A stretch of DNA of 10,115 nucleotides. It comes from a candidate division Zixibacteria bacterium RBG_16_43_9. Lineage in GTDB: Bacteria; Zixibacteria; MSB-5A5; RBG-16-43-9. Below the pieces are notes generated by a model. It saw only the letters and a list, made by a program, of their open reading frames with translations. It did not search any database and was not told the DNA's origin. This document shows positions 1 to 10,103 of the stretch, in pieces. The stretch spans positions 13,407-23,521 of the forward strand of contig MEWM01000010.1 of assembly GCA_001775355.1 (NCBI GenBank), given 5' to 3'. The stretch's first letter is position 1, and every line of letters starts with the position of its first letter. The position numbers and the translations under genes were made by a program.

Positions 1-1799
1 GTGGTAAAGGTAGATTGAACCTCAGGAAAGGAAAAAAGGATCTTCTCGACTTGAGTTGCTACTTTTTCTGTAGCCTGGATAGAAGTACCAATCGGAGTCT
101 CCAGTATCACCCTGAATTCACCTCGATCTCCCTGAGTCATAAACTCCTTGCCGATGAAAAAAGTTAAGCTCAGACTCAAGAAGAAAATTATTATGGAAGC
201 TGAGATTATTAAAAACTTGTGGGTCAATGACCAGGCTAAAACCTTTCCGTAGGTCTGATTGAGTTTAGAATAGCCCCGGTTAAAAGGGGCAAATAATCTC
301 TTCAACAGGCTTTCCTTATCTTTTTTCTCTTTCACTAAAACCTTGGCGGAAAGCATTGGAGCCATAGTAAAAGAATCCCATAAGGAATAAAGTATTGCAA
401 AGACAACTGTGAAGGCAAAAGCTCTGAAGAACTTCCCCACGATGTCGCTCATATAGGCAACTGGAACGAAGACAGCTATAATAGTAAAAGTGCAAGCCAT
501 AACAGCCAGCCCTACCTCGGCAGTGCCAAACCTTGAAGCCTCCTCAGGTTCCATCCCTTCCTCCACGTGCCGGAAGATATTCTCCCGCACCACGATGGCA
601 TCATCTATCAGGATACCCACGCACAAAGATAAGCCCATCAGGGTCATCATATTTATAGTATAGCCGAAAAGGTTCATCATGATGAATGTGGCTAAAATGG
701 AGGTGGGAATGGCTAAAGCCGCAATTATGGTGCTTCTGAAATTTCCTAAGAAGATAAATATGACCAGCGTGGCAAAGATAGCTCCCAGATATAAAGTTCT
801 CATGGTTTCATTTACCGATCTGCGGATGAATTTGGACTGATCCGAGGCTATCTCGATTGCGGTGCCTGGAGGAAGTTCTTTTTCCAATTTAGATATAGTC
901 TTTTTGATCCTCTCACATACCTTTACAGTATTGCCGCCAGACTGCTTAAATACAATAAATGAGACCGAAGGCCTGCCATTAAGCTGAGCAATCTCCCTTA
1001 ACTCCTTAAAGGTATCTTTGATCTTAGCTACATCTTTTAAATAAACCGAAGTCCCCTGATAATTAGCCACAGGTATCTTTCCAATATCTGATACCTCCTG
1101 TAACTCTCCGGTAGACCTTAGCACAAACTCCTGAGGTTCTATTTCCACCCTACCACCTGGCACATTCAGATTCTCGCGAGCTAAATTTCCAATCACCTGC
1201 TCAACTGCTAAGTTGTAAGCCTGGAGTTTCTTTCTATCCACCTCCACTCTTATCTCCCTTTCCAATCCTCCAACTAATTTGACCTCAGCTACTTCTTCTG
1301 TCTGCTGGATAACATTTTTGACCCTGTCCTCAGCTAAAGTCCTGAGCTCATCTAAAGGAAGATCACTTGCCAGAGAAAAGATCATCACCGGTGTAGCTGA
1401 GACATCAAACCGGGCTATGGTAGGCTCATCTATATCCTTGGGAAGTTTTGAACGAATCTCAGAAAGCTTCTCCCTCACATCTGTTTCCGCATCCCGGACC
1501 TTTTTTTCAATTTTGAATTCTAATAGAACCTGGGAAAAACCTTCGGCTGTGGTAGAGTAGATATTCTTCAGCCCATTGATAGCGCTCATAGCCTCTTCGA
1601 TCGGCTTGGTCACCTGGTTTTCAATCTCCTGAGCCCCGGCTCCTGGATAAACTGTGGTGATCGAGATATAGGGGAATTCGACATTTGGCATCAAGTCGAT
1701 TCCTATTCGGGTATAGGAAACCACCCCTAAGACTAAGACCGCTAAGACCTGCATCACGATGAAAACAGGCCGGCGAATGGATAAATTAGGCAGAAACAT
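1..1799 (-). CDS. RND-family efflux pump (AcrB/HAE1-like), 3' part missing
   Basis: This is the inner-membrane proton-driven pump of a tripartite efflux system. I translated it from the ATG at 1799; 599 codons lie in the window and the frame runs open off the left edge, so about 60% of a usual ~1030-residue protein is present. The N-terminus (MFLPNLSIRRPVFIVMQVLA) is the typical first transmembrane segment of the family. It is followed by a periplasmic porter region with the YPGAGAQEIENQVTKPIEEA block. A cluster of membrane segments then contains the GILIDDAIVVREN motif. Its paired aspartates, Asp399 and Asp400, match the proton-relay Asp407/408 of AcrB. The start codon overlaps the adaptor stop by one base (TAATG), which implies translational coupling. 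Substrates cannot be read from the sequence: drugs, metals or lipids are all possible. The general family call is secure; the sub-family is less so. Confidence 0.95.
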   Translation of the reverse strand, partial: MFLPNLSIRRPVFIVMQVLAVLVLGVVSYTRIGIDLMPNVEFPYISITTVYPGAGAQEIENQVTKPIEEAMSAINGLKNIYSTTAEGFSQVLLEFKIEKKVRDAETDVREKLSEIRSKLPKDIDEPTIARFDVSATPVMIFSLASDLPLDELRTLAEDRVKNVIQQTEEVAEVKLVGGLEREIRVEVDRKKLQAYNLAVEQVIGNLARENLNVPGGRVEIEPQEFVLRSTGELQEVSDIGKIPVANYQGTSVYLKDVAKIKDTFKELREIAQLNGRPSVSFIVFKQSGGNTVKVCERIKKTISKLEKELPPGTAIEIASDQSKFIRRSVNETMRTLYLGAIFATLVIFIFLGNFRSTIIAALAIPTSILATFIMMNLFGYTINMMTLMGLSLCVGILIDDAIVVRENIFRHVEEGMEPEEASRFGTAEVGLAVMACTFTIIAVFVPVAYMSDIVGKFFRAFAFTVVFAILYSLWDSFTMAPMLSAKVLVKEKKDKESLLKRLFAPFNRGYSKLNQTYGKVLAWSLTHKFLIISASIIIFFLSLSLTFFIGKEFMTQGDRGEFRVILETPIGTSIQATEKVATQVEKILFSFPEVQSTFT

Positions 1800-2725
1800 T
1801 ATCTTCCTTCTCCTTTAACTATCCTTACTTTATCTCCAGGCTGGAGTTGACTTTGACCTAAAATCACTAAACTATCTTCCAATGCCAGCCCGCTTTTTAC
1901 GTAGGTCAACCCCCCTTCACTGAATCCGGTCTCAACCATCCTCTCCTCTGCTTTACCATTTTTCACCACGTAGACTTTCTTCTTCCCGGCTTCGGTCAGA
2001 ACAGTATATCTGGGAACCAGAATCAAATTCTCGGTCTTACCGGTGGCTAAGTCTACCTCCGCAAACATCCCCGGCTTTAAGAGATGATTCGAGTTGGGAA
2101 TGGTTATTTCTACACTGGCGGTCCGGGCTAAACTGTTCAGGGTAGGGCTGATCAGGGTAATCACCCCATTGAACTCTTTATCTGGATATGAATCAACTCT
2201 GATTTTGGCTCTTTGATTTAATTTGACCTTGGGAAGGTCCTCTTCTGTAACCTGGATTATTATTTTCACTGAGTCAAGATTCAGAATTTGAGCTAAGGCA
2301 GTACCCATGCCCGGACCAGGGGAAGGAGGATTTACCTCTGCGCCTTTGTCCAGATATACCTTGCCCACAATCCCTTCGACCGGGGAAACGGTTTCAGACC
2401 GTTCAAATTCCAAACCAGGTATATCCCTATCGACCAGAGCCACCACCTGATCTTTTTTCACCCTGTCTCCTTCTTTTACCTTCATCTCCATTAACTTGCC
2501 TGAGGCTTTAGGATAAATCAGCACCTCTTCTATACCCTTGACCTCCCCGGTGTAATTAAGGATTGGGGTATAAGGCGAGGCTTTAACAATCTCCACCTCC
2601 ACCGGGATAATCCTTTCCTTTACCTCTGCGGTTTGAGCTTTCTTCTCCTTGAGAAAGACCATTATCTTGTAGAAAACAAAGAACAGGATCAAAAGGATAA
2701 TCAGAACTCCGATTAATTTTTTCAT
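1799..2725 (-). CDS. RND periplasmic adaptor (HlyD/AcrA type), short hairpin-less form
   Basis: This membrane fusion protein should bridge the inner-membrane pump encoded next to it and the outer envelope. Residues 4-25 are a hydrophobic N-terminal anchor with no lipobox cysteine. A first lipoyl half-motif spans about 66-100 (YPKASGKLMEMKVKEGDRV). The second half follows at about 111-130 (ETVSPVEGIVGKVYLDKGAEV). Then come a Pro/Gly-rich patch at 132-139 and the beta-barrel and membrane-proximal domains (about 150-300, with LKPGMFAEV at 216-224). Only some ten residues separate the two lipoyl halves, so the long coiled-coil hairpin that meets TolC in AcrA is absent. At 308 residues it is also shorter than usual adaptors. 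The ribosome binding site AAGGAG lies just upstream of the ATG. The gene follows padR after 96 bases and overlaps the pump gene by one base. Confidence 0.9.
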   Translation of the reverse strand: MKKLIGVLIILLILFFVFYKIMVFLKEKKAQTAEVKERIIPVEVEIVKASPYTPILNYTGEVKGIEEVLIYPKASGKLMEMKVKEGDRVKKDQVVALVDRDIPGLEFERSETVSPVEGIVGKVYLDKGAEVNPPSPGPGMGTALAQILNLDSVKIIIQVTEEDLPKVKLNQRAKIRVDSYPDKEFNGVITLISPTLNSLARTASVEITIPNSNHLLKPGMFAEVDLATGKTENLILVPRYTVLTEAGKKKVYVVKNGKAEERMVETGFSEGGLTYVKSGLALEDSLVILGQSQLQPGDKVRIVKGEGR

Positions 2726-2730
2726 CTTCT

Positions 2731-2763
2731 CTCCTTAACTTTTTTAAGCTTTGTGTCTTTTCA
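2731..2763. repeat. Direct repeat copy A (degenerate copy of padR tail plus ribosome site)
   Basis: This 33-base stretch matches 2808-2841 at 30 of 34 aligned positions, with three substitutions and one single-base gap. On the minus strand it would encode the last padR codons and stop again (KRHKA versus KRYKA), followed by AAGGAG. It supplies the ribosome site actually used by the adaptor gene. Confidence 0.8.
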
Positions 2764-2807
2764 TTTTTTTCTCCCTCCCTTTAAGGGAGGGATGTAAGGG
2801 AGGGTGA
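2764..2807. repeat. Short palindromic element between padR and adaptor genes
   Basis: It contains the 21-base palindrome at 2772-2792 (arms tccctccctt and aagggaggga around one t), then a third aagggaggg unit at 2796-2804. No T-run follows the hairpin in either direction that would make it a standard terminator. It may be a dispersed short palindromic repeat, and as RNA it could fold between padR and the adaptor and alter their relative expression. Confidence 0.65.
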
Positions 2808-2841
2808 CTCCTTAATTCTTTTTAAGCTTTATATCTTTTCA
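2808..2841. repeat. Direct repeat copy B (padR 3' end and following bases)
   Basis: This copy contains the true padR stop and, just after it on the minus strand, TTAAGGAG. The two copies flank a 44-base G/C-tract element at 2764-2807. The arrangement suggests a duplication made when that element arrived. Confidence 0.8.
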
Positions 2842-3355
2842 CCTGGCTGGTCAGCTTATCTATCAATTTTATATCCAGCTTGAGATGGGATACCCCTCGT
2901 TCTAAAATGAACTTCCAGTTAAAGGGCATCTTTTTACATTCTTTCCCGCATAGTTTTTGAATTGTCAGGATCACTTTATGAAGCTTCTTTTTCTTATGCG
3001 AAAGGGAATCTAAGATTTTTTTCCTATCTAACCCCTGCAGAAAAGCCACACCCACGATAAAGCTATCCTCCGGCATCTTGTGCTCATTCAATGCTATCTC
3101 CACTAATTCCCCTAACTTTTTTTTACCGCTGGGGGTGATGTGGTAAACCCTTCTTTCCGGCATCTTGCCCGGCTTTTCACCCTTCCCCTCGATAAGCTTA
3201 TCTTTCTGCAGACGATTGAGGGTATTATAGATCGAGGCTAAATTTACCTGCGCCCAGTGCTCCATCTCCCTTCTTTCGATCTCCTGGTAGAGCTGATAAC
3301 CATACATTGGCTTTTCGCTCAACAACCCCAGGACCACCAGTTCATTTTTAGTCAT
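2822..3355 (-). CDS. PadR-family transcriptional regulator
   Basis: This is a DNA-binding repressor of the PadR family, whose members often control the efflux or detoxification genes beside them. Residues 1-85 form the winged helix: ELVVLGLLSEKPMYGYQLYQ, then SIYNTLNRLQKDKLIEG as the recognition-helix region, then RRVYHITPSGKKKL as the wing. Residues about 95-177 are helical and basic and fit the C-terminal dimerisation domain; the 177-residue length suits the subfamily with the longer C-terminus. The ATG has GGAG five bases upstream. It is the first gene of the padR-adaptor-pump operon, and a perfect 23-base palindrome lies 16 bases before its start, which points to autoregulation. The inducing ligand is unknown. 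The family call is firm; control of the pump is inferred from position. Confidence 0.92.
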   Translation of the reverse strand: MTKNELVVLGLLSEKPMYGYQLYQEIERREMEHWAQVNLASIYNTLNRLQKDKLIEGKGEKPGKMPERRVYHITPSGKKKLGELVEIALNEHKMPEDSFIVGVAFLQGLDRKKILDSLSHKKKKLHKVILTIQKLCGKECKKMPFNWKFILERGVSHLKLDIKLIDKLTSQVKRYKA

Positions 3356-3565: not shown

Positions 3566-3571
3566 AGCATT

Positions 3572-4594
3572 TTACCAGGTACAATTACATCTTATCTTCT
3601 TATAATCCAAATCCGGGGATTCAAATTTAGACTTCAGCTTTTCCCACATCTCCACAGTCTCCTTGCAAAGGGAGATATTGGTGTAATTGTATTTTTCTTT
3701 GAGATATTTAATTAAGTGCAGATACATAGTAAATCTATTGGAGAACTCTATCTTCTTGCCCCAGTTCGACTTTTCCTCTAAGTAAATTTGCCAGGACTTA
3801 TCTTTGGTTCCATTAATAGTGCTCTGTAAACCCCTTAAAGAGCCTAAAGTTATTCGCTCAGGGATAAACTTTGCAAAAATCTGGTCAATTAGCTGCTTAT
3901 AACTTTCCTGCCATCCAGCCATCGGCACCATCGGATCTATTCTCACTCTTATCTCATAACCTGCCTCTGCCAACCTGCTGGCGGCTTCAATTCGCTTTGA
4001 AACGGCAGGCGCTTTTTTCTCCCATTTTTTTGCTACTTTATCCGCATTCAGACTAAAGCTTATAATTGTCTGATTGTGCGGTTTTATTTCAAGTAAATGC
4101 TTAATATTCGTCGATTTAGTCAAGAATAGAACCTTATGTTTATTTTGAGATTCGAACAGCGGAATTATGAATTTGGAAAAAGGGTTATGCCCATTTTCCC
4201 ACATTAGGGAATCGGCAATTTCTCCGGTGTTAAGGACCTCAGGGGGTAGAGACGCATGGCTATTCGTCTCTACATTAAGAAATTCCCTGACGTGCAGTTC
4301 AATTTTAGCATAATCTTTAATTACCGGTTTTATCCCTTCGGGCCTAAACCTGAAAGTCCCCTTTAAATAACACCAGGAACAATCAAACGGACACCCATAA
4401 GCCCATTTAAGTTCCAAAAAGTGAGGGCAGACAACGTCGGTAGGCTCAGAAGGTAAAGGGGTCTTCTCAAATCGAGTGATAATTGAACCATCACCTATCT
4501 GTTTAACAAACCTATCTTGGGTACCATTTATTAATCTATATAACTGTAAATTTGTTCTCAAAATTCTATTTTTTGTAGTTTTTGCTAAAAGCAT
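3572..4594 (-). CDS. Radical SAM protein, spore-photoproduct-lyase-like, TcmP partner
   Basis: This is a 340-residue radical SAM enzyme of unknown substrate. The [4Fe-4S] motif CX3CX2C is Cys68, Cys72, Cys75 (YGCPFDCSWCY). The rest follows the order seen in spore photoproduct lyase-like proteins: a TGEIADSL strand near 123-130, VLFLTKSTNIKHLL, ISFSLNAD, KRIEAASRLAEAGYEIRVRIDPM and GWQESY. The C-terminus ends in CNCTW (Cys336, Cys338), and a further Cys56 precedes the cluster motif; these could bind metal or donate hydrogen, but that is inference. Residues 108-116 are encoded by a palindromic repeat that appears to be inserted in frame. The gene starts 10 bases after the tcmP stop, with AGGAA overlapping the intergap, so the two are surely co-transcribed. 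Spot base counts of 27-37% G+C are below most flanking genes. It is not a true spore DNA lyase by context; nucleic-acid repair or modification is only a possibility. Confidence 0.85.
   Translation of the reverse strand: MLLAKTTKNRILRTNLQLYRLINGTQDRFVKQIGDGSIITRFEKTPLPSEPTDVVCPHFLELKWAYGCPFDCSWCYLKGTFRFRPEGIKPVIKDYAKIELHVREFLNVETNSHASLPPEVLNTGEIADSLMWENGHNPFSKFIIPLFESQNKHKVLFLTKSTNIKHLLEIKPHNQTIISFSLNADKVAKKWEKKAPAVSKRIEAASRLAEAGYEIRVRIDPMVPMAGWQESYKQLIDQIFAKFIPERITLGSLRGLQSTINGTKDKSWQIYLEEKSNWGKKIEFSNRFTMYLHLIKYLKEKYNYTNISLCKETVEMWEKLKSKFESPDLDYKKIRCNCTW
4246..4273. repeat. Small inverted repeat inside the radical SAM coding sequence
   Basis: Nine-base perfect arms gtagagacg and cgtctctac flank a ten-base centre (catggctatt) that is itself nearly symmetric. 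This resembles the GTAGAGACG-type short palindromic repeats known between genes in several bacteria. Here it lies in frame and encodes residues 108-116 of the radical SAM protein. Confidence 0.7.
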
Positions 4595-4604
4595 GAAATT
4601 CCTA

Positions 4605-5444
4605 TTAAGTTAATTTATCAAGAAAAGAAATTTGACCTCTAATCCAATCTTTTTGCAAAACATGTTTCATAATTTTTGCACCTGCAGAATGGTCAGTTGT
4701 GAAAATCAAGTAATATAATGGACGACCTTCTCTGCTTTCAATTAGTTTCCAATCAACAAACTTATATCCAAGTCTTTTTAAACCATCTGTAAAAATTTTA
4801 AGTATACGCTTTCTCACCTCAAGTGGTTTAAGTCTCCCTTTAATTCTATCTTCATATACGTCGATCCAGCTATTGTAAGGCAATGTCTTGTTTAACAATA
4901 AAGCGATATTTTCTTTATCAAATCTTTTTTTGTTATAGTAAAGAACACGAGCAAATGCCATATTATAAGGAAATAGAATAAACAATTCGATCTTTCTTCC
5001 TTTCTTATAGATAGCAATTTTTTCAATTGTCGACCATTCTACTTCAAAACCTTCTGGGTCAAGAAAGGCAAAGCATGGAGCCTCCTGAGGGATTTCAGAA
5101 AGTATTTCATCGATGACCAAATTGCAATCTCCTTCCCTTATTTTATATCGATTTTGTGGAAAGTCTTTCAAAAGTCTGGTCAACGTTTTTATATTTTTCT
5201 TCTTGATTTCAATAAAAAAACATTTAGTGAATCCAGGTTTTAATTTCATTGCAATTAAAGGTGAGCCGTTAACAGTTTGAGTTCGAGATGTGCCAGGAAT
5301 TTCTATCTCACATTGTCCGTCCCCTGCGAGAGCATCTAAATAATAACGTTCCATAGCTCCCTTGGTTGCCGTTACATAGCCTTGAAGATATTTTTCTAAA
5401 AGAGTCAGTTTCTCCTTCGTATGAATTTTACTAATTCTTGCCAT
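4605..5444 (-). CDS. tcmP: Three-Cys-motif partner protein (TcmP-like), methyltransferase-like fold
   Basis: This 279-residue protein resembles TcmP, a family named for sitting beside proteins with a three-cysteine radical-SAM-like motif (the Gp37/Gp68 group), exactly as here. The sequence reads like a class I methyltransferase. There is a glycine-rich LDALAGDGQ at 36-44 (motif I position), GSPLIA at 60-65, an acidic strand end FIEI at 77-80 (motif II), GDC at 105-107, FLDPEGFEVEW at 127-137 (a DPxG-like active-site loop), and ILFPYNMAFAR at 156-166. The C-terminal PLYYLIFTTDHSAGAKIMKHV block is also typical of the family as I remember it. Whether it binds S-adenosylmethionine or transfers methyl groups is not established. 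The start has a GGGGAAG ribosome site five bases before the ATG. It follows the dipeptidase stop after 17 bases and precedes the radical SAM gene by 10. Five 60-base blocks gave 23-47% G+C, mostly near 25%. Confidence 0.82.
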   Translation of the reverse strand: MARISKIHTKEKLTLLEKYLQGYVTATKGAMERYYLDALAGDGQCEIEIPGTSRTQTVNGSPLIAMKLKPGFTKCFFIEIKKKNIKTLTRLLKDFPQNRYKIREGDCNLVIDEILSEIPQEAPCFAFLDPEGFEVEWSTIEKIAIYKKGRKIELFILFPYNMAFARVLYYNKKRFDKENIALLLNKTLPYNSWIDVYEDRIKGRLKPLEVRKRILKIFTDGLKRLGYKFVDWKLIESREGRPLYYLIFTTDHSAGAKIMKHVLQKDWIRGQISFLDKLT

Positions 5445-5461
5445 TTATACTTCCCCATTAT

Positions 5462-6640
5462 TCATTTACAAACCTCCCCAAACACTCTCAAAAAATTCCC
5501 GCCCAGTATTTTTTTAATATCCTCATCTTTATACCCCCGGTTCATCAGCTCCTGGGTTATTTCAGGCAAGCCAGAGGCATCTTTTATCTCAAGAGGTATA
5601 GCCGGAATCCCATCAAAATCCGAGCCTAAGCCTACATAATCTGGTCCCACCAATTTAACTATATAGTCTATATGGTCAACTAACTTTGACAAAGTAGCCG
5701 GAGGAGGAAAATTAGCATTCCGGTAGAGCAGAGAAGTCTCCTCTTCGATTTTCTTATCATCCCCTTTGAACTTTTCTTTGATCTCCTCTTTCTTGACCTG
5801 TATTTCCTTATAAATGCTATCAGAGGCTTTTCTGAAATCATCATCCAAATACCCGGAGAAAAAATTAATCCCGATGACTCCTCCGGATTTGGCAATCGCT
5901 TTTATCTGCTCGTCTGTGAGGTTGCGGTAATGGTTGCAGATCGCTTTAACGCAGGAATGAGACGCTATTATCGGAGCACTGGATAAATTTACCACATCCC
6001 GGAAAGCCTGCTCTGAAAGGTGAGAGACATCCACCATCATACCCAGTCTGTTCATCTCTTTTACTGTTTCTTTACCCAAATCGGTCAGACCACCTTTCTG
6101 CGAAGAGGTATCAGCCGCGGAGCTTGCTAAGGGGTTGGAATTCTCCCAGGTCAAAGTCATATACCTTACCCGCAGGCGATAAAAGGTTCGCAGCAACGAC
6201 AAATCCCCTTCGATTGCATGCCCTCCCTCCAGACCCAGGAAACAGGCTATCTTACCTTTTTTATTGATCCTTTTGAAATCTTTAATATTGGTAGCCAACT
6301 CCAAATCCTGGGGATATTTTTCAAGCTGTTGGTAGAAAAGGTCTATTAAATCTAAAGCCTGTTTGGCTGCGCTGTCCGGCAAAAATTTTGGCTCCACCCA
6401 GATGGCAAAAACCTGAAGGTCAATCCCTCCTTCTTTTAATCGGGGGATATCGATATGACCGGTGGAGTGTCTCTCCCCTAAGATATAATCTCCCTTTTTG
6501 AGCTTAAGCACAGTATCTGAGTGCAGGTCGCAGACTATAGCTTTAGAGTGAAGTTTTTTTGCTCTCATAGAAATATCATTGGCTCCAAAAGATATTTGGA
6601 ATAAAAAAAACAGGACAAAGCCTGTGAGTATTTTATACAT
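5462..6640 (-). CDS. Membrane dipeptidase, peptidase family M19 (renal dipeptidase-like), secreted
   Basis: This zinc dipeptidase hydrolyses dipeptides, including some with a D-residue at the C-terminal side, and should act outside the cytoplasmic membrane. Residues 1-19 form a signal peptide with a likely cut after SFGA; there is no lipobox cysteine. The family's metal and active-site residues are all visible: His40 and Asp42 (LHSDT), Glu138 bridging the metals (GLEGGH), His207 (VSHLSE), His228 (ASHS), Arg239 in NHYRN, and Asp341 in GSDFDG. The C-terminal GGNFLRVF block is typical. Length 392 is normal for the family. A charged helical segment lies at 276-303. No strong ribosome site is seen before the ATG, but it falls only 23 bases after the DUF1844 stop and is the only ATG that gives a full signal peptide. 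A role in peptide or cell-wall turnover is inferred. Confidence 0.93.
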   Translation of the reverse strand: MYKILTGFVLFFLFQISFGANDISMRAKKLHSKAIVCDLHSDTVLKLKKGDYILGERHSTGHIDIPRLKEGGIDLQVFAIWVEPKFLPDSAAKQALDLIDLFYQQLEKYPQDLELATNIKDFKRINKKGKIACFLGLEGGHAIEGDLSLLRTFYRLRVRYMTLTWENSNPLASSAADTSSQKGGLTDLGKETVKEMNRLGMMVDVSHLSEQAFRDVVNLSSAPIIASHSCVKAICNHYRNLTDEQIKAIAKSGGVIGINFFSGYLDDDFRKASDSIYKEIQVKKEEIKEKFKGDDKKIEEETSLLYRNANFPPPATLSKLVDHIDYIVKLVGPDYVGLGSDFDGIPAIPLEIKDASGLPEITQELMNRGYKDEDIKKILGGNFLRVFGEVCK

Positions 6641-6663
6641 AGATACATCAGGATGGTTGAGGT

Positions 6664-7020
6664 CTATTCTTTTTTCTCTCCCTCGGATTCGGAGGATTTA
6701 CCCTCATCTTTTTTCGACTCTTCTTTCTTCAACTCGTCCAGATAATTCATCCTCAACTCAAATAGTACGTTTTCTAAGTATTTGTTTTCTTCTTCCTTCA
6801 GGTTCCCTTTAGTTTTCTTCTGCAGGACCTCCAGGATGTCGATCGAGTATTTCGCCTGTTCTAAGTTTTTTTCTATCTTTTGGGTTACCGGGTTGATTAG
6901 CTTGCCCATCTGCTGCAACGCTGCAGTTTGAAACATAAAGACCAGATGTAAGAAAAGCTCATCTTTGGCCTGGCTCTTTTCCTCTTTAGTACCCATACGA
7001 TCTTGTTCCTTTAGCCCCAT
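6664..7020 (-). CDS. DUF1844 family protein
   Basis: This small cytoplasmic protein of unknown function matches DUF1844. The diagnostic core runs through FLHLVFMFQTAALQQMGKL, a proline turn (NPVTQKIEKNLEQAKYSID), then ILEVLQKKTKGNLKEEENKYLENVLFELRMNYLD in pieces, which is close to the family consensus as I know it. The C-terminal tail is almost entirely Lys/Glu/Ser and likely disordered. The start is uncertain. The ATG at 7020 has only a weak ribosome site, and a TTG immediately before it is unlikely. The ATG at 6996 has AAAGGA about ten bases upstream and would remove eight non-conserved residues. It lies 22 bases after the coiled-coil gene and 23 before the dipeptidase, so it is in the recG operon. 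Confidence 0.88.
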   Translation of the reverse strand: MGLKEQDRMGTKEEKSQAKDELFLHLVFMFQTAALQQMGKLINPVTQKIEKNLEQAKYSIDILEVLQKKTKGNLKEEENKYLENVLFELRMNYLDELKKEESKKDEGKSSESEGEKKE

Positions 7021-7042
7021 CAAGATGCTACCGGCTAAAAGC

Positions 7043-7237
7043 TCAATCCTTTTCTTCCTCTTCCAGAAATTTAAATGCGATATCCAGACTATGCTGTAAG
7101 TCCATCATCTCTGCATCCACCTTCTTCAAAAGTCGGGATAGGTCATAGTCTTTTGACTCGGTGACCAACCTTTTGATCTTTTTCTCTAACTTAGCCGCAT
7201 CTTCAATCAGCTCTTCAATCCTTTCTCTTGTGCTCAT
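7043..7237 (-). CDS. Small acidic coiled-coil protein, unknown
   Basis: I do not recognise this 64-residue protein. It is almost wholly helical by eye, with heptad-like spacing of Leu/Ile in RIEELIEDAAKLEKKIKRL and in SRLLKKVDAEMMDLQHSL. It is rich in Glu and Lys, has no cysteine, signal peptide or membrane segment, and ends in an acidic EEEEKD. A good ribosome site (GAGGT, six bases before the ATG) and its place in a tight string of genes 36 bases after the DUF366 gene support that it is real. It might act as a small adaptor or partner for a neighbour, but nothing in the sequence says which. Confidence 0.75.
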   Translation of the reverse strand: MSTRERIEELIEDAAKLEKKIKRLVTESKDYDLSRLLKKVDAEMMDLQHSLDIAFKFLEEEEKD

Positions 7238-7273
7238 CTTTTACCTCATTGTTTAAAAAAACGTCTTAAATCG

Positions 7274-7831
7274 TTAATCGATGCTCCTGGTCTTGACCAG
7301 CCTTTCTGCGACCCTCCTCATATCCAGACGATATTGATTCATCGCCACCTGAGCAAGGTCCAGTGGATCTAAGCCGTAATCCTCCAGACCTTTGGTTTTC
7401 ACCGGAGTATTCTTACTGGAGATATTAACCCCCAGATGGATCTTGGTGGAGACTTTTGTGCGGGTGACTGTGGAGATGGTCAGCTTGGCATCCCCGTCAA
7501 AGATATCGTTCCCCCACCTCTGCAGGACATCCCCTTTCAGCCTGTGATTTAATTTGTCCTTTAAGATTGAAACCAAAAGCTTCTGTTTCAAGATCGCCTT
7601 CTCCAGGTCTAAATCGAAATGCTCAACAACAAAATGCAGCATCTTCTCACTTCTTACCTGGGTTTTCTTCTTGTAGTGGTCAACACCTACCAAATATTTT
7701 TCCTCTATCTCGCACGGACCGATGAAGCTGACGATGCTGTCTCCTAAAAGGTCAAATTTAGTATACGCCCAATGAGAGATAAGTTGTTCTCCGGTAAATT
7801 TTATTTCCTCAGACACAAAAAGCGATTTCAT
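7274..7831 (-). CDS. DUF366 family protein
   Basis: This 185-residue protein matches DUF366, a family of unknown function found in various bacteria and archaea. The recognisable blocks are FTGEQLISHWAY near the N-terminus, GDSIVSFIGPCEI, MLHFVVEHFDLDLEKAILKQ, a central LQRWGNDIFDGDAKLTIS, and STKIHLGVNISSKNTPVKTKGL followed by a helical C-terminus. The conserved His and acidic residues suggest an enzyme or ligand-binding fold, but no reaction is known to me. There is no signal peptide or membrane segment. GAGGAA is placed four to five bases before the ATG. It follows recG by 49 bases and precedes the coiled-coil gene by 36. The family assignment is from memory of its consensus. Confidence 0.85.
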   Translation of the reverse strand: MKSLFVSEEIKFTGEQLISHWAYTKFDLLGDSIVSFIGPCEIEEKYLVGVDHYKKKTQVRSEKMLHFVVEHFDLDLEKAILKQKLLVSILKDKLNHRLKGDVLQRWGNDIFDGDAKLTISTVTRTKVSTKIHLGVNISSKNTPVKTKGLEDYGLDPLDLAQVAMNQYRLDMRRVAERLVKTRSID

Positions 7832-7880
7832 AATTCCTCACTTTTCCTGTGGATCCATTTTTTTGTAAAATATATGAAAT

Positions 7881-10037
7881 TTATCCAATATCCGCCAGCT
7901 TGAATTTATCTTTGTAGTTTCGTATAAACTTACTCCTCAGGCAAAGATTCTCCTTGGAGCTCAAATTCCCATCCTCCTGCACGATCTTGAAAGCCCAGTC
8001 GCGAGCCTTAAAAAGAAGCTCCAGATCCTCGGTCAAATCCGCTATTTTGAAATCCGGCAGCCCGTGCTGTCTGGTACCGAAAAACTCCCCAGGACCTCTC
8101 AATTTTAAATCTGCCTCTGAGATTTTGAAGCCGTCCGTAGTGGAGGATAAAATCTGGAGCCTTCTCCTTGCCTCTTCTGAAACCAACTTGGAAAATTTAA
8201 GGATACAGTAAGATTGTTCTTCGCCTCTGCCGATCCTGCCCCTTAGCTGGTGAAGCTGGGAAAGCCCGAACCTCTCCGCATGCTCGATTAGCATAAGGGT
8301 TGCATTTGGTACGTCTAAACCGACTTCGATTACTGTGGTGCAGACTAAGATATCGTACTCCCTGGAACGAAAAGCTTTCATTACTCTTTCCCTCTCTTCC
8401 CTTTTTATCCTGCCGTGAAGTAAAGCTATTTTTCTATGGGGGAATATTTTCCCCTGGAGAAACTGATACCCTTCTGTTGCTGCTTTTAAATCAGCCTTTT
8501 CTGACTCCTCGATCAGGGGATAAACGATATATGCCTGCCTGCCTTTTTTAAGCTCCTCTTCTAAGAAAATATAACCTTTCTCAGAGGAGTCTTCATCTAA
8601 AAGTCTGGTCTCGATTTTTTTTCTGCCCGGGGGCATCTGGTTAATCACCGAGATATCTAAGTCTCCATATACTGTCAGGGCTAAGGTGCGGGGAATAGGG
8701 GTTGCGGTCATGACCAGTAGGTGCGGCGACTCGCCTTTGAGCTTCAGACTCAGCCTCTGCATCACTCCGAAACGATGCTGTTCATCTATCACTGCCAGGC
8801 CCAATCTGTTGAAATTCACCTCTTTCTGAATAAGCGAATGCGTGCCCACTATTATCTTGGCTTCACCTGAAGAGATCTTTCTCAAAATCTCTTTTTTCTC
8901 ACCTGTTTTAACCGAGCTGGTTAAGAGGAGTGGCTCTATTTTTAAGGGCTCCAGGAGAATGGAAAGGCCCAGATGATGCTGCTCTGAGAGAACCTCTGTT
9001 GGTGCCATAATAGCTGTCTGGTAACCGTTTTCTATTGCCATCAGCATAGCTATGAGTGCCACGATAGTCTTGCCTGAGCCAACATCCCCCTGCAAAAGCC
9101 GATGCATAGCCTTACCTGAGGAGACGTCCTGATAGATCTCATTTAAAACCTTCCTTTGATCTTGAGTTAGCTCAAAAGGAAGACTCTCTAAAAATCTTTT
9201 CACTATCGCTCCGGGTCTTGAAAAAACCGAGCCTTTCTCCTTTAACTCCGAATGTCTTTTTCTCAAAGCTAAAAGCAACTCCAAATAGAAAAGCTCTTCA
9301 AAGGCTAACCTTTTTCTTGCTTTTGAAGCATCCTCAATGGAATCCGGAAAATGGATAGTTTTTAAAGACCAGTCCAATGCCGGAAGCTCAAGCTCTTCCC
9401 TTAACTTATCTGGAAGCGTCTCCTGAATCTGGGGAAAAAGGTTTTCCAGAAGATAGCTAATGACCCTGCGGAATCCGCGACTATCCAGGTAGACATTTTT
9501 TAACTCGGAGGTGGATGGATAAAGCGGGATTACCCTTCCGGTATGGATTAACTTTTCCCCCTTTTCCGAGTTCGGGTCCACATGACCGGAGATTATCTCA
9601 AACTCCGGGTGAGGCATCTGTAAACCGTAGAAAGTTCGCACCTCTCCAGAAGCCACAACTGTATCCCCCTCCTTGAACTTGTTCTGAATATATTTGATCC
9701 CGGAAAACCAGACCAATTTCAGAAAGCTTTTCTCATCTCTTAGGATAACCCAGTATTGAGGGGTTCTCCATCTTTTTATCCCGTAGGACTCAACTGTTCC
9801 CATCACTGTTGCCCTGGAGTTTACCTGAAGCTCGTCCATTGGCGTTATGGTGCTGCGGTCTAAATATCTGCGCGGGATGTGATACAGAAGGTCTTCAACA
9901 CTGTTTATTCCAATAGTGGCTAAAGCCTCTGCTTTAACCGGACCGATCCCTTTCAAGTACTGAACCGGGCTTTGAAGGTCTAATTTTCTCGGCCTGCCTG
10001 CTAAAGACTGAGCGTCAACCGTTGAAGCCGCTCTCAA
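7881..10037 (-). CDS. recG: ATP-dependent DNA helicase RecG
   Basis: RecG remodels stalled replication forks and branch-migrates Holliday junctions. In order from the chosen start there is an N-terminal helix-hairpin-helix-like stretch (YLKGIGPVKAEALATIGINS) and the wedge OB domain with RRYLDRS. Next come the helicase core with Walker A GDVGSGKT at 317-324, DEQHRFG at 418-424, TATPIPRTL, and the second RecA lobe with TTVIEVGLDVPNA and QLRGRIGRG. The C-terminal GPGEFFGTRQHGLPDFKIADL completes the family. I place the start at the TTG at 10037, which has CAGGAG six bases upstream and gives 718 residues. The frame is open up to another TTG at 10103, but that TTG is the -35 box of a near-consensus promoter and would add 22 residues unlike the family. 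An in-frame stop lies at 10111-10113, so the gene is complete. Confidence 0.95.
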   Translation of the reverse strand: MRAASTVDAQSLAGRPRKLDLQSPVQYLKGIGPVKAEALATIGINSVEDLLYHIPRRYLDRSTITPMDELQVNSRATVMGTVESYGIKRWRTPQYWVILRDEKSFLKLVWFSGIKYIQNKFKEGDTVVASGEVRTFYGLQMPHPEFEIISGHVDPNSEKGEKLIHTGRVIPLYPSTSELKNVYLDSRGFRRVISYLLENLFPQIQETLPDKLREELELPALDWSLKTIHFPDSIEDASKARKRLAFEELFYLELLLALRKRHSELKEKGSVFSRPGAIVKRFLESLPFELTQDQRKVLNEIYQDVSSGKAMHRLLQGDVGSGKTIVALIAMLMAIENGYQTAIMAPTEVLSEQHHLGLSILLEPLKIEPLLLTSSVKTGEKKEILRKISSGEAKIIVGTHSLIQKEVNFNRLGLAVIDEQHRFGVMQRLSLKLKGESPHLLVMTATPIPRTLALTVYGDLDISVINQMPPGRKKIETRLLDEDSSEKGYIFLEEELKKGRQAYIVYPLIEESEKADLKAATEGYQFLQGKIFPHRKIALLHGRIKREERERVMKAFRSREYDILVCTTVIEVGLDVPNATLMLIEHAERFGLSQLHQLRGRIGRGEEQSYCILKFSKLVSEEARRRLQILSSTTDGFKISEADLKLRGPGEFFGTRQHGLPDFKIADLTEDLELLFKARDWAFKIVQEDGNLSSKENLCLRSKFIRNYKDKFKLADIG

Positions 10038-10043
10038 AATGTG

Positions 10044-10049
10044 CTCCTG
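10044..10049 (-). promoter_or_regulatory. Ribosome binding site that decides the recG start
   Basis: CAGGAG lies six bases before the TTG at 10037. The other possible start, the TTG at 10103, has only CTCC before it and would lie upstream of the predicted transcription start. Confidence 0.7.
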
Positions 10050-10074
10050 AATGAAAAAATTATTAATCCAAGAT

Positions 10075-10103
10075 ATATTAATCTTTTTCCCAAAGCCTGT
10101 CAA
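10075..10103 (-). promoter_or_regulatory. Predicted sigma70-type promoter of recG operon
   Basis: On the minus strand TTGACA (10103-10098) is a perfect -35 box. It is followed by 17 bases and TAATAT (10080-10075) as the -10 box. The predicted start of transcription near 10068 leaves a leader of about 30 bases before the TTG start with its ribosome site. I see no operator-like repeat next to it. Confidence 0.7.

Follow-up and report, generated by a model that had tools for sequence, protein, structure and literature searches.

TcmP paired with an SPL-family radical SAM protein: a widespread but patchy variant of the TcmP pairing

Closest described systems and the window cassette

Two proteins that lack an assigned function, TcmP and DUF5131, are already flagged by defence-finding software. 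The PADLOC models PDC-M41A/B and PDC-M30A/B match them, so that PADLOC already treats both as defence candidates, but does not model the SPL-type partner considered here; a preliminary description of this locus, made from the DNA letters, had called the biochemical role of TcmP undescribed and is corrected as to these existing models. According to a figure legend in PMC10855318, PDCs were found by guilt-by-embedding, and a passage of the same paper has PDC-M30 predicted for 32 of the 100 P. aeruginosa strains in one panel. In a passage of PMC11878078 PDC function is reported as not confirmed. Our literature search, limited in reach, found nothing on the mechanism of TcmP or on TcmP together with radical SAM proteins. 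The other close relatives are single proteins: spore photoproduct lyase (SPL; PF20903, PDB 4fhf) on one side, and on the other RlmJ, the 23S rRNA m6A2030 methyltransferase, and Trm1.

The window, by which we mean the whole stretch of 10,115 nucleotides that was analysed, corresponds to positions 13,407-23,521 of contig MEWM01000010.1 in a genome of 1.95 Mb that is 74% complete. Two open reading frames on its minus strand, 4605-5444 and then 3572-4594 in order of transcription, are separated by 10 bases. The motifs that drew attention to them (CX3CX2C in one gene; LDALAGDGQ, FIEI and FLDPEGF in the other) are all present, and the pair is indeed AT-rich, with a GC content of 36.0% compared with 43.4% in the rest of the window (33.1% for the TcmP gene and 38.4% for the radical SAM gene). 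The two-gene cassette (3567-5460, minus strand) is missing as a single block from the genus-mate genome G002, the DNA of which (locus L095) aligns to the window up to 3566 (80%) and from 5461 onward (92%), with 13 bases between. There the flanking dipeptidase (94% identity) and PadR (77%) genes lie on a single contig with neither cassette gene between them. The absent block is exactly the TcmP and radical SAM genes, and the cassette is therefore accessory; either gain or loss would fit this comparison. In G001 both cassette genes adjoin the dipeptidase, and the contig ends inside the radical SAM gene. The flanks, also on the minus strand, read as an RND efflux pump, a membrane-fusion protein and a PadR regulator (1-3355) and as an M19 dipeptidase and RecG (5462-10103). 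None of these neighbours (dipeptidase, RecG, PadR, RND efflux) is a defence gene.

The product of 4605-5444 (minus strand, 279 aa) is TcmP, as had been proposed: it matches TIGR04474 at 174.7 bits (E 3.5e-51, cut-off 53) over profile positions 2-261 of 263, and PADLOC's PDC-M41A at 112.1 bits (1.2e-32). It has a class I methyltransferase fold, best matched in structure by RlmJ and Trm1, both of which methylate RNA bases, and the TcmP profile matches RlmJ by sequence too. Motif I (LDALAGDGQ; 5313-5339, minus strand), of the SAM-binding type, aligns to YLDTHAGAG of RlmJ, and its residues D37, G41 and G43 are kept in 89, 87 and 86 of the 89 aligned rows. The GSP motif (residues 60-62; 5259-5267, minus strand) is common to the GSPLIA of RlmJ by alignment, with its residues kept in 88, 89 and 88 of the same rows, and D129-P130 of motif IV (FLDPEGF; 5046-5066, minus strand) is found in all 89. 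Such near-invariance of D37, G41, G43, GSP and D129-P130 is as expected of a working SAM site, judged from the aligned sequences. The catalytic motif of RlmJ is DPPY, whereas the window TcmP has DPEG, and the second proline occurs in 5 of 89 TcmPs; among TcmPs from the radical SAM loci motif IV is DPFG, the motif of Trm1, in 21 of 38 (by a pattern search that missed 4). RlmJ has some 40 residues between motif I and GSP that TcmP is without, and TcmP, unlike either enzyme, is paired with a radical SAM protein. Some TcmP relatives carry a GMT-wHTH (winged-helix) domain.

The product of 3572-4594 (minus strand, 340 aa) is an SPL-family radical SAM protein. It matches PF20903 at 78.9 bits (E 4.4e-22, gathering cut-off 27) and has no match to PF07505 (DUF5131/Gp37) up to E=1, which bears out the suggestion that it stands closer to spore photoproduct lyase than to phage Gp37/Gp68; PF04055 scores 27.2, just under its cut-off of 29.5. 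With a CX3CX2C motif and a radical SAM fold it belongs to the radical SAM superfamily, and by both sequence and model it folds like spore photoproduct lyase. The cluster motif CPFDCSWC (C68, C72 and C75, within residues 68-75; 4370-4393, minus strand) is present in 183 of 183 family sequences. Four other cysteines are invariant, all on the minus strand: C56 (4427-4429; 183 of 183), C310 (3665-3667; 178 of 183, the other five being gapped there) and, near the C-terminus, C336 and C338 of a CNC motif (3581-3589; 176 of 183, the other seven gapped). All four are found together in 170 of 172 full-cover members, the two misses being one sequence at a contig end and one record named partial.

Comparison with spore photoproduct lyase itself indicates where the resemblance stops. 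A profile alignment places E125 (4220-4222, minus strand) at the position of Cys140, the catalytic hydrogen donor of that enzyme, and Glu occupies it in 183 of 183 sequences. Because of this Glu the partner should not be called spore photoproduct lyase, despite the SPL-like fold. The equivalog model for the lyase, TIGR04070, scores it at 94.9 bits against a cut-off of 400. The four additional cysteines are family-specific, the residues beyond 311 lie outside the match, and the protein has TcmP as a partner. The source genome has a second, distant SPL-family radical SAM gene (G000:C84:16311-17108, 166 bits), with similar matches in relatives; no TcmP match was found on that contig.

Set beside PDC-M41 and PDC-M30 by model match, the cassette shares the TcmP component, the tight adjacency and the island context (on plasmids). 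The difference lies in the partner: DUF5131, their component B, has CX6CX2C, whereas the window partner is an SPL-family protein with CX3CX2C for which PADLOC gave 0 matches up to E=1, and the family of which is fused to TcmP in 11 of 47 loci.

Partner types, fusion and spread of the pair

A survey of 132 genomes of the phylum gave 37 TcmP matches in 34 genomes and 54 strong DUF5131 matches. When a partner is counted only on the same strand and within 1 kb, the gene next to TcmP is of the DUF5131 type in 20 cases, of the SPL type in six and of a third type in four; the remaining seven matches are six partial sequences and one tandem copy. The partner is downstream of TcmP in 30 of 30 pairs, as is the three-Cys-motif partner in the window. 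The SPL-type pair is thus a real new variant of the TcmP pairing, a point on which the preliminary description was right. For 34 of the 54 DUF5131 genes, in turn, no TcmP gene adjoins on the same strand. The third type (L079-L082, in G128, G125, G031 and G075) carries CX3CX3C (GCxHGCxYPCYAM). Comparison of profiles, which are shallow (two have 15 and 4 rows), links it with the SPL type (96.8%, 2.8e-10) and with DUF5131 (91.7%, 7.9e-7); the link between the SPL type and DUF5131 is weak (61.8%, 7.7e-5), and the cysteines are aligned in all three comparisons. These links argue that DUF5131, with its CX6CX2C, is probably a diverged radical SAM protein. Tandem TcmP genes lie beside a single DUF5131 gene in L064 (G044) and L091 (an Acidovorax plasmid). 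TcmP-DUF5131 pairs in L068, L070, L072, L077, L083 and L084 adjoin genes reading like pdxS and/or pdxT, by eye a recurring chromosomal place in one clade.

The search with the radical SAM profile gave 47 loci among named genomes of bacteria and archaea, where genes were called with a purpose-made simple gene caller, together with four loci in viral contigs. The 47 loci span 14 named bacterial and archaeal phyla, 10 loci being without a phylum name. Close to the source, matches occur in 8 of 59 relatives (one of which, G009, has a weak paralogue only), and the family is present in 7 of the 132 phylum genomes when distant SPL paralogues are set aside. In 11 of the 47 loci TcmP and the radical SAM domain are in one open reading frame, with TcmP first as in the gene order of the window; the exceptions to an intact fusion are L041, frameshifted within the radical SAM part, and L045, cut by a contig end. 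TcmP is adjacent on the same strand in another 18 (10 just upstream and 8 just downstream), with a gap or overlap within 30 bases in 15, and nearby on the opposite strand in two, where a second radical SAM gene lies between. The other 16 are without TcmP; in six of these the contig ends within 250 bases, and 10 have 700 bases or more to either side. Because of these 10, the pairing, earlier taken as regular, is to be called strong, not obligate. TcmP was sought genome-wide in 13 of the 16 host genomes and none was found in 11, so the radical SAM subunit is able to survive by itself. Recurrence and fusions are beyond chance and strongly support the view, put forward before the neighbourhoods were tabulated, that TcmP and the radical SAM protein form one functional and evolutionary unit.

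In the tree built from the radical SAM domain (52 rows, leaving out L048 and L059) the fused and adjacent states interchange at least five times, and the TcmP-less state needs eight changes, of which five are forced by well-supported branches. Several TcmP-less genes start with pieces that read by eye like TcmP ends, two of which were scored (77 bits in L023 and E 0.011 in L048). From these sequences the genes look as if TcmP was cut out of a fusion. Sister relations across phyla (L045 of Zixiibacteriota with L007 of Pseudomonadota; L002 of Planctomycetota inside Chloroflexota) point to horizontal transfer. The pair is genuine; its distribution is wide but patchy, and it is mobile and modular.

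Other arrangements of the two domains were seen as well. P0198 (418 aa) is a radical SAM protein with a winged-helix domain in front, and in P0216 (495 aa) the radical SAM protein is preceded by what reads as the C-terminal half of TcmP. Two successive radical SAM genes with TcmP on the opposite strand occur in the bathyarchaeal and viral loci L030, L034 and L049-L051, the viral L049-L050 nearly matching the archaeal copy in L030. Beside one fusion (L024/L057), which is 719 aa long in L024, two short open reading frames directly after the fused gene (G003:C241:1848-2623) score 69 and 61 bits with the radical SAM profile, each in a different frame, as if they were a broken second copy.

Genomic context of the module

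Clustering of the 281 genes near the module covered 56 loci: the 47, the four viral ones, two loci of distant SPL paralogues (L060 and L061) and L001, L055 and L059, the duplicates L053, L054, L056, L057 and L058 having been dropped beforehand. The largest cluster has 12 proteins in 10 loci. Eleven of these were examined (the twelfth, a second L052 gene, lies outside that set), and 10 are named restriction-modification (R-M) proteins by Pfam or PADLOC, in 9 of the 56 loci within four genes of the module; the L012 member is a fragment unnamed by Pfam. Among the R-M neighbours are type I HsdM/HsdS as well as type IIG enzymes from several families. An N6_Mtase gene stands directly upstream of 5 of the 47 modules compared with 0.09 expected (Poisson 5e-8), or 4 compared with 0.09 (Poisson 3e-6) without L004, a close relative of L003. 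This expectation follows from the 191 N6_Mtase genes in 46 host genomes, assuming one gene per kb and counting split matches. The R-M state (L012 included) changes at least seven times on the radical SAM tree. R-M genes are thus over-represented beside the module, with no R-M gene seen at most loci.

Neighbours of the island type include Schlafen AlbA_2 (L007, L014, L018 and L046), YhcG nucleases (L006 and L048), Fic (L006) and type III Res (L009). Plasmid pairs of TcmP and Gp37/Gp68 have island-type neighbours in all three regions opened, of four plasmid matches: a DNA methyltransferase, a helicase and a GIY-YIG gene in Acidovorax, a DNA methyltransferase in Deinococcus, and DUF262 genes in Paraburkholderia. 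In an expression table of PMC12445080 a TcmP, SMa2243, is listed beside Hna (SMa2245), a helicase of phage defence. It is context only that supports a role of the pair in defence.

Proposed chemistry and alternative explanations

Fusions elsewhere, together with restriction genes beside some copies, argue that the pair is probably one nucleic-acid-modifying, defence-linked enzyme, and both folds make nucleic acid its likely target. Our best explanation, to which we give a little less than an even chance, is that the two subunits make up one accessory enzyme, spread by horizontal transfer, which chemically alters nucleic acid (most likely DNA) in the service of genome defence. TcmP, aided in some relatives by the winged-helix domain, would grip the nucleic acid and bind or methylate an exocyclic base amine. 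The radical SAM subunit would reductively cleave SAM at the C68/C72/C75 cluster and take a hydrogen from the base or from the methyl just added. With Glu in the position of SPL's hydrogen-donating Cys, the radical would be passed on to an added group or bond, and not returned as it is when a lesion is repaired. A second cluster or a metal may be held by the four other invariant cysteines, and the product, made next to R-M systems, would label self or harm invading nucleic acid. Several points speak against this explanation: the 16 of 47 loci without TcmP, the non-defence neighbours of the pair in the window, the lack of an R-M gene at most loci, the motif DPEG in place of DPPY, the 34 of 54 DUF5131 genes with no TcmP alongside, and the small number of viral finds (four loci and one weak phage record).

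What the SPL-type pair supplies to the TcmP pairing is the missing element, a partner with a canonical radical SAM motif, and it adds in-frame fusions that strongly support joint function and fold assignments for both subunits. A "three-Cys-motif partner" can thereby be restated as a testable chemical hypothesis, a methyltransferase and a radical SAM protein acting on a base. A bolder version, which we regard as unlikely, is that TcmP, with its partners, represents a new class of radical enzymes that hypermodify nucleobases with two subunits and act in immunity. Methylation of a base amine in the manner of Trm1/RlmJ would be followed by remodelling of the methyl by an SPL-derived radical SAM protein with a second metal site, leaving a mark or lesion of a kind new to DNA; the SPL-type pair would then be one branch of a single system, with PDC-M30 and PDC-M41 as others, and DUF5131 would be a disguised radical SAM protein.

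The alternative that survives best, unlikely in our judgement, is an SOS-linked enzyme that, much like spore photoproduct lyase, would directly reverse or process a base lesion or crosslink. The SPL fold of the partner favours it, as do the genes directly upstream in two loci, RecA ahead of a fusion in L021 and LexA ahead of TcmP in L016, at a spacing of 65-67 bases with the stop codon included, and an HTH plus Peptidase_S24 repressor directly upstream in L076. We take Rv2734 and Rv2735c to be the DUF5131 and TcmP genes, Rv2735c being TcmP. The sole support for that identity is that BCG_2748c is called TcmP in a passage of PMC7387457. Passages elsewhere have recA, recX and Rv2735c co-transcribed (PMC3062782) and Rv2734, Rv2735c, recX and recA in one mitomycin C cluster (PMC5057432). 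Against repair, the position of SPL's catalytic Cys is Glu throughout the family, the RecA and LexA neighbours are a post hoc observation in 2 of the 47 loci, and R-M neighbours are commoner. The RecA, LexA and mitomycin C links suggest either that repair stays alive as an explanation or that a defence enzyme is under damage-induced control.

Modification of rRNA or tRNA, self or invader, as by RlmJ and Trm1 but with a radical second step, we consider more doubtful again: it would account for the structural and profile matches of TcmP and for the DPFG form of motif IV, but the patchy, mobile distribution is unlike that of core RNA modification, and the R-M and SPL links point to DNA. Least probable is that activity resides in the radical SAM protein alone, with TcmP as a regulatory or scaffold subunit that can be dispensed with and whose methyltransferase fold is dead, for although TcmP-less genes are scattered over the tree (at least five forced changes), some with short N-terminal TcmP remnants by eye, and motif IV is degenerate, the putative SAM-site residues of TcmP are nearly invariant.

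Two further kinds of neighbour recur beside the module. A gene reading by eye like QueH lies directly 3' of the radical SAM gene in L023 (1562-2134) and L042 (988-1551). Three similar genes in a row adjoin the module in one bacterium and one archaeon (L035:1169-4837 and L047:5894-9748); an HSP90-like ATPase is among them in L047, and another of the three reads like a radical SAM gene.
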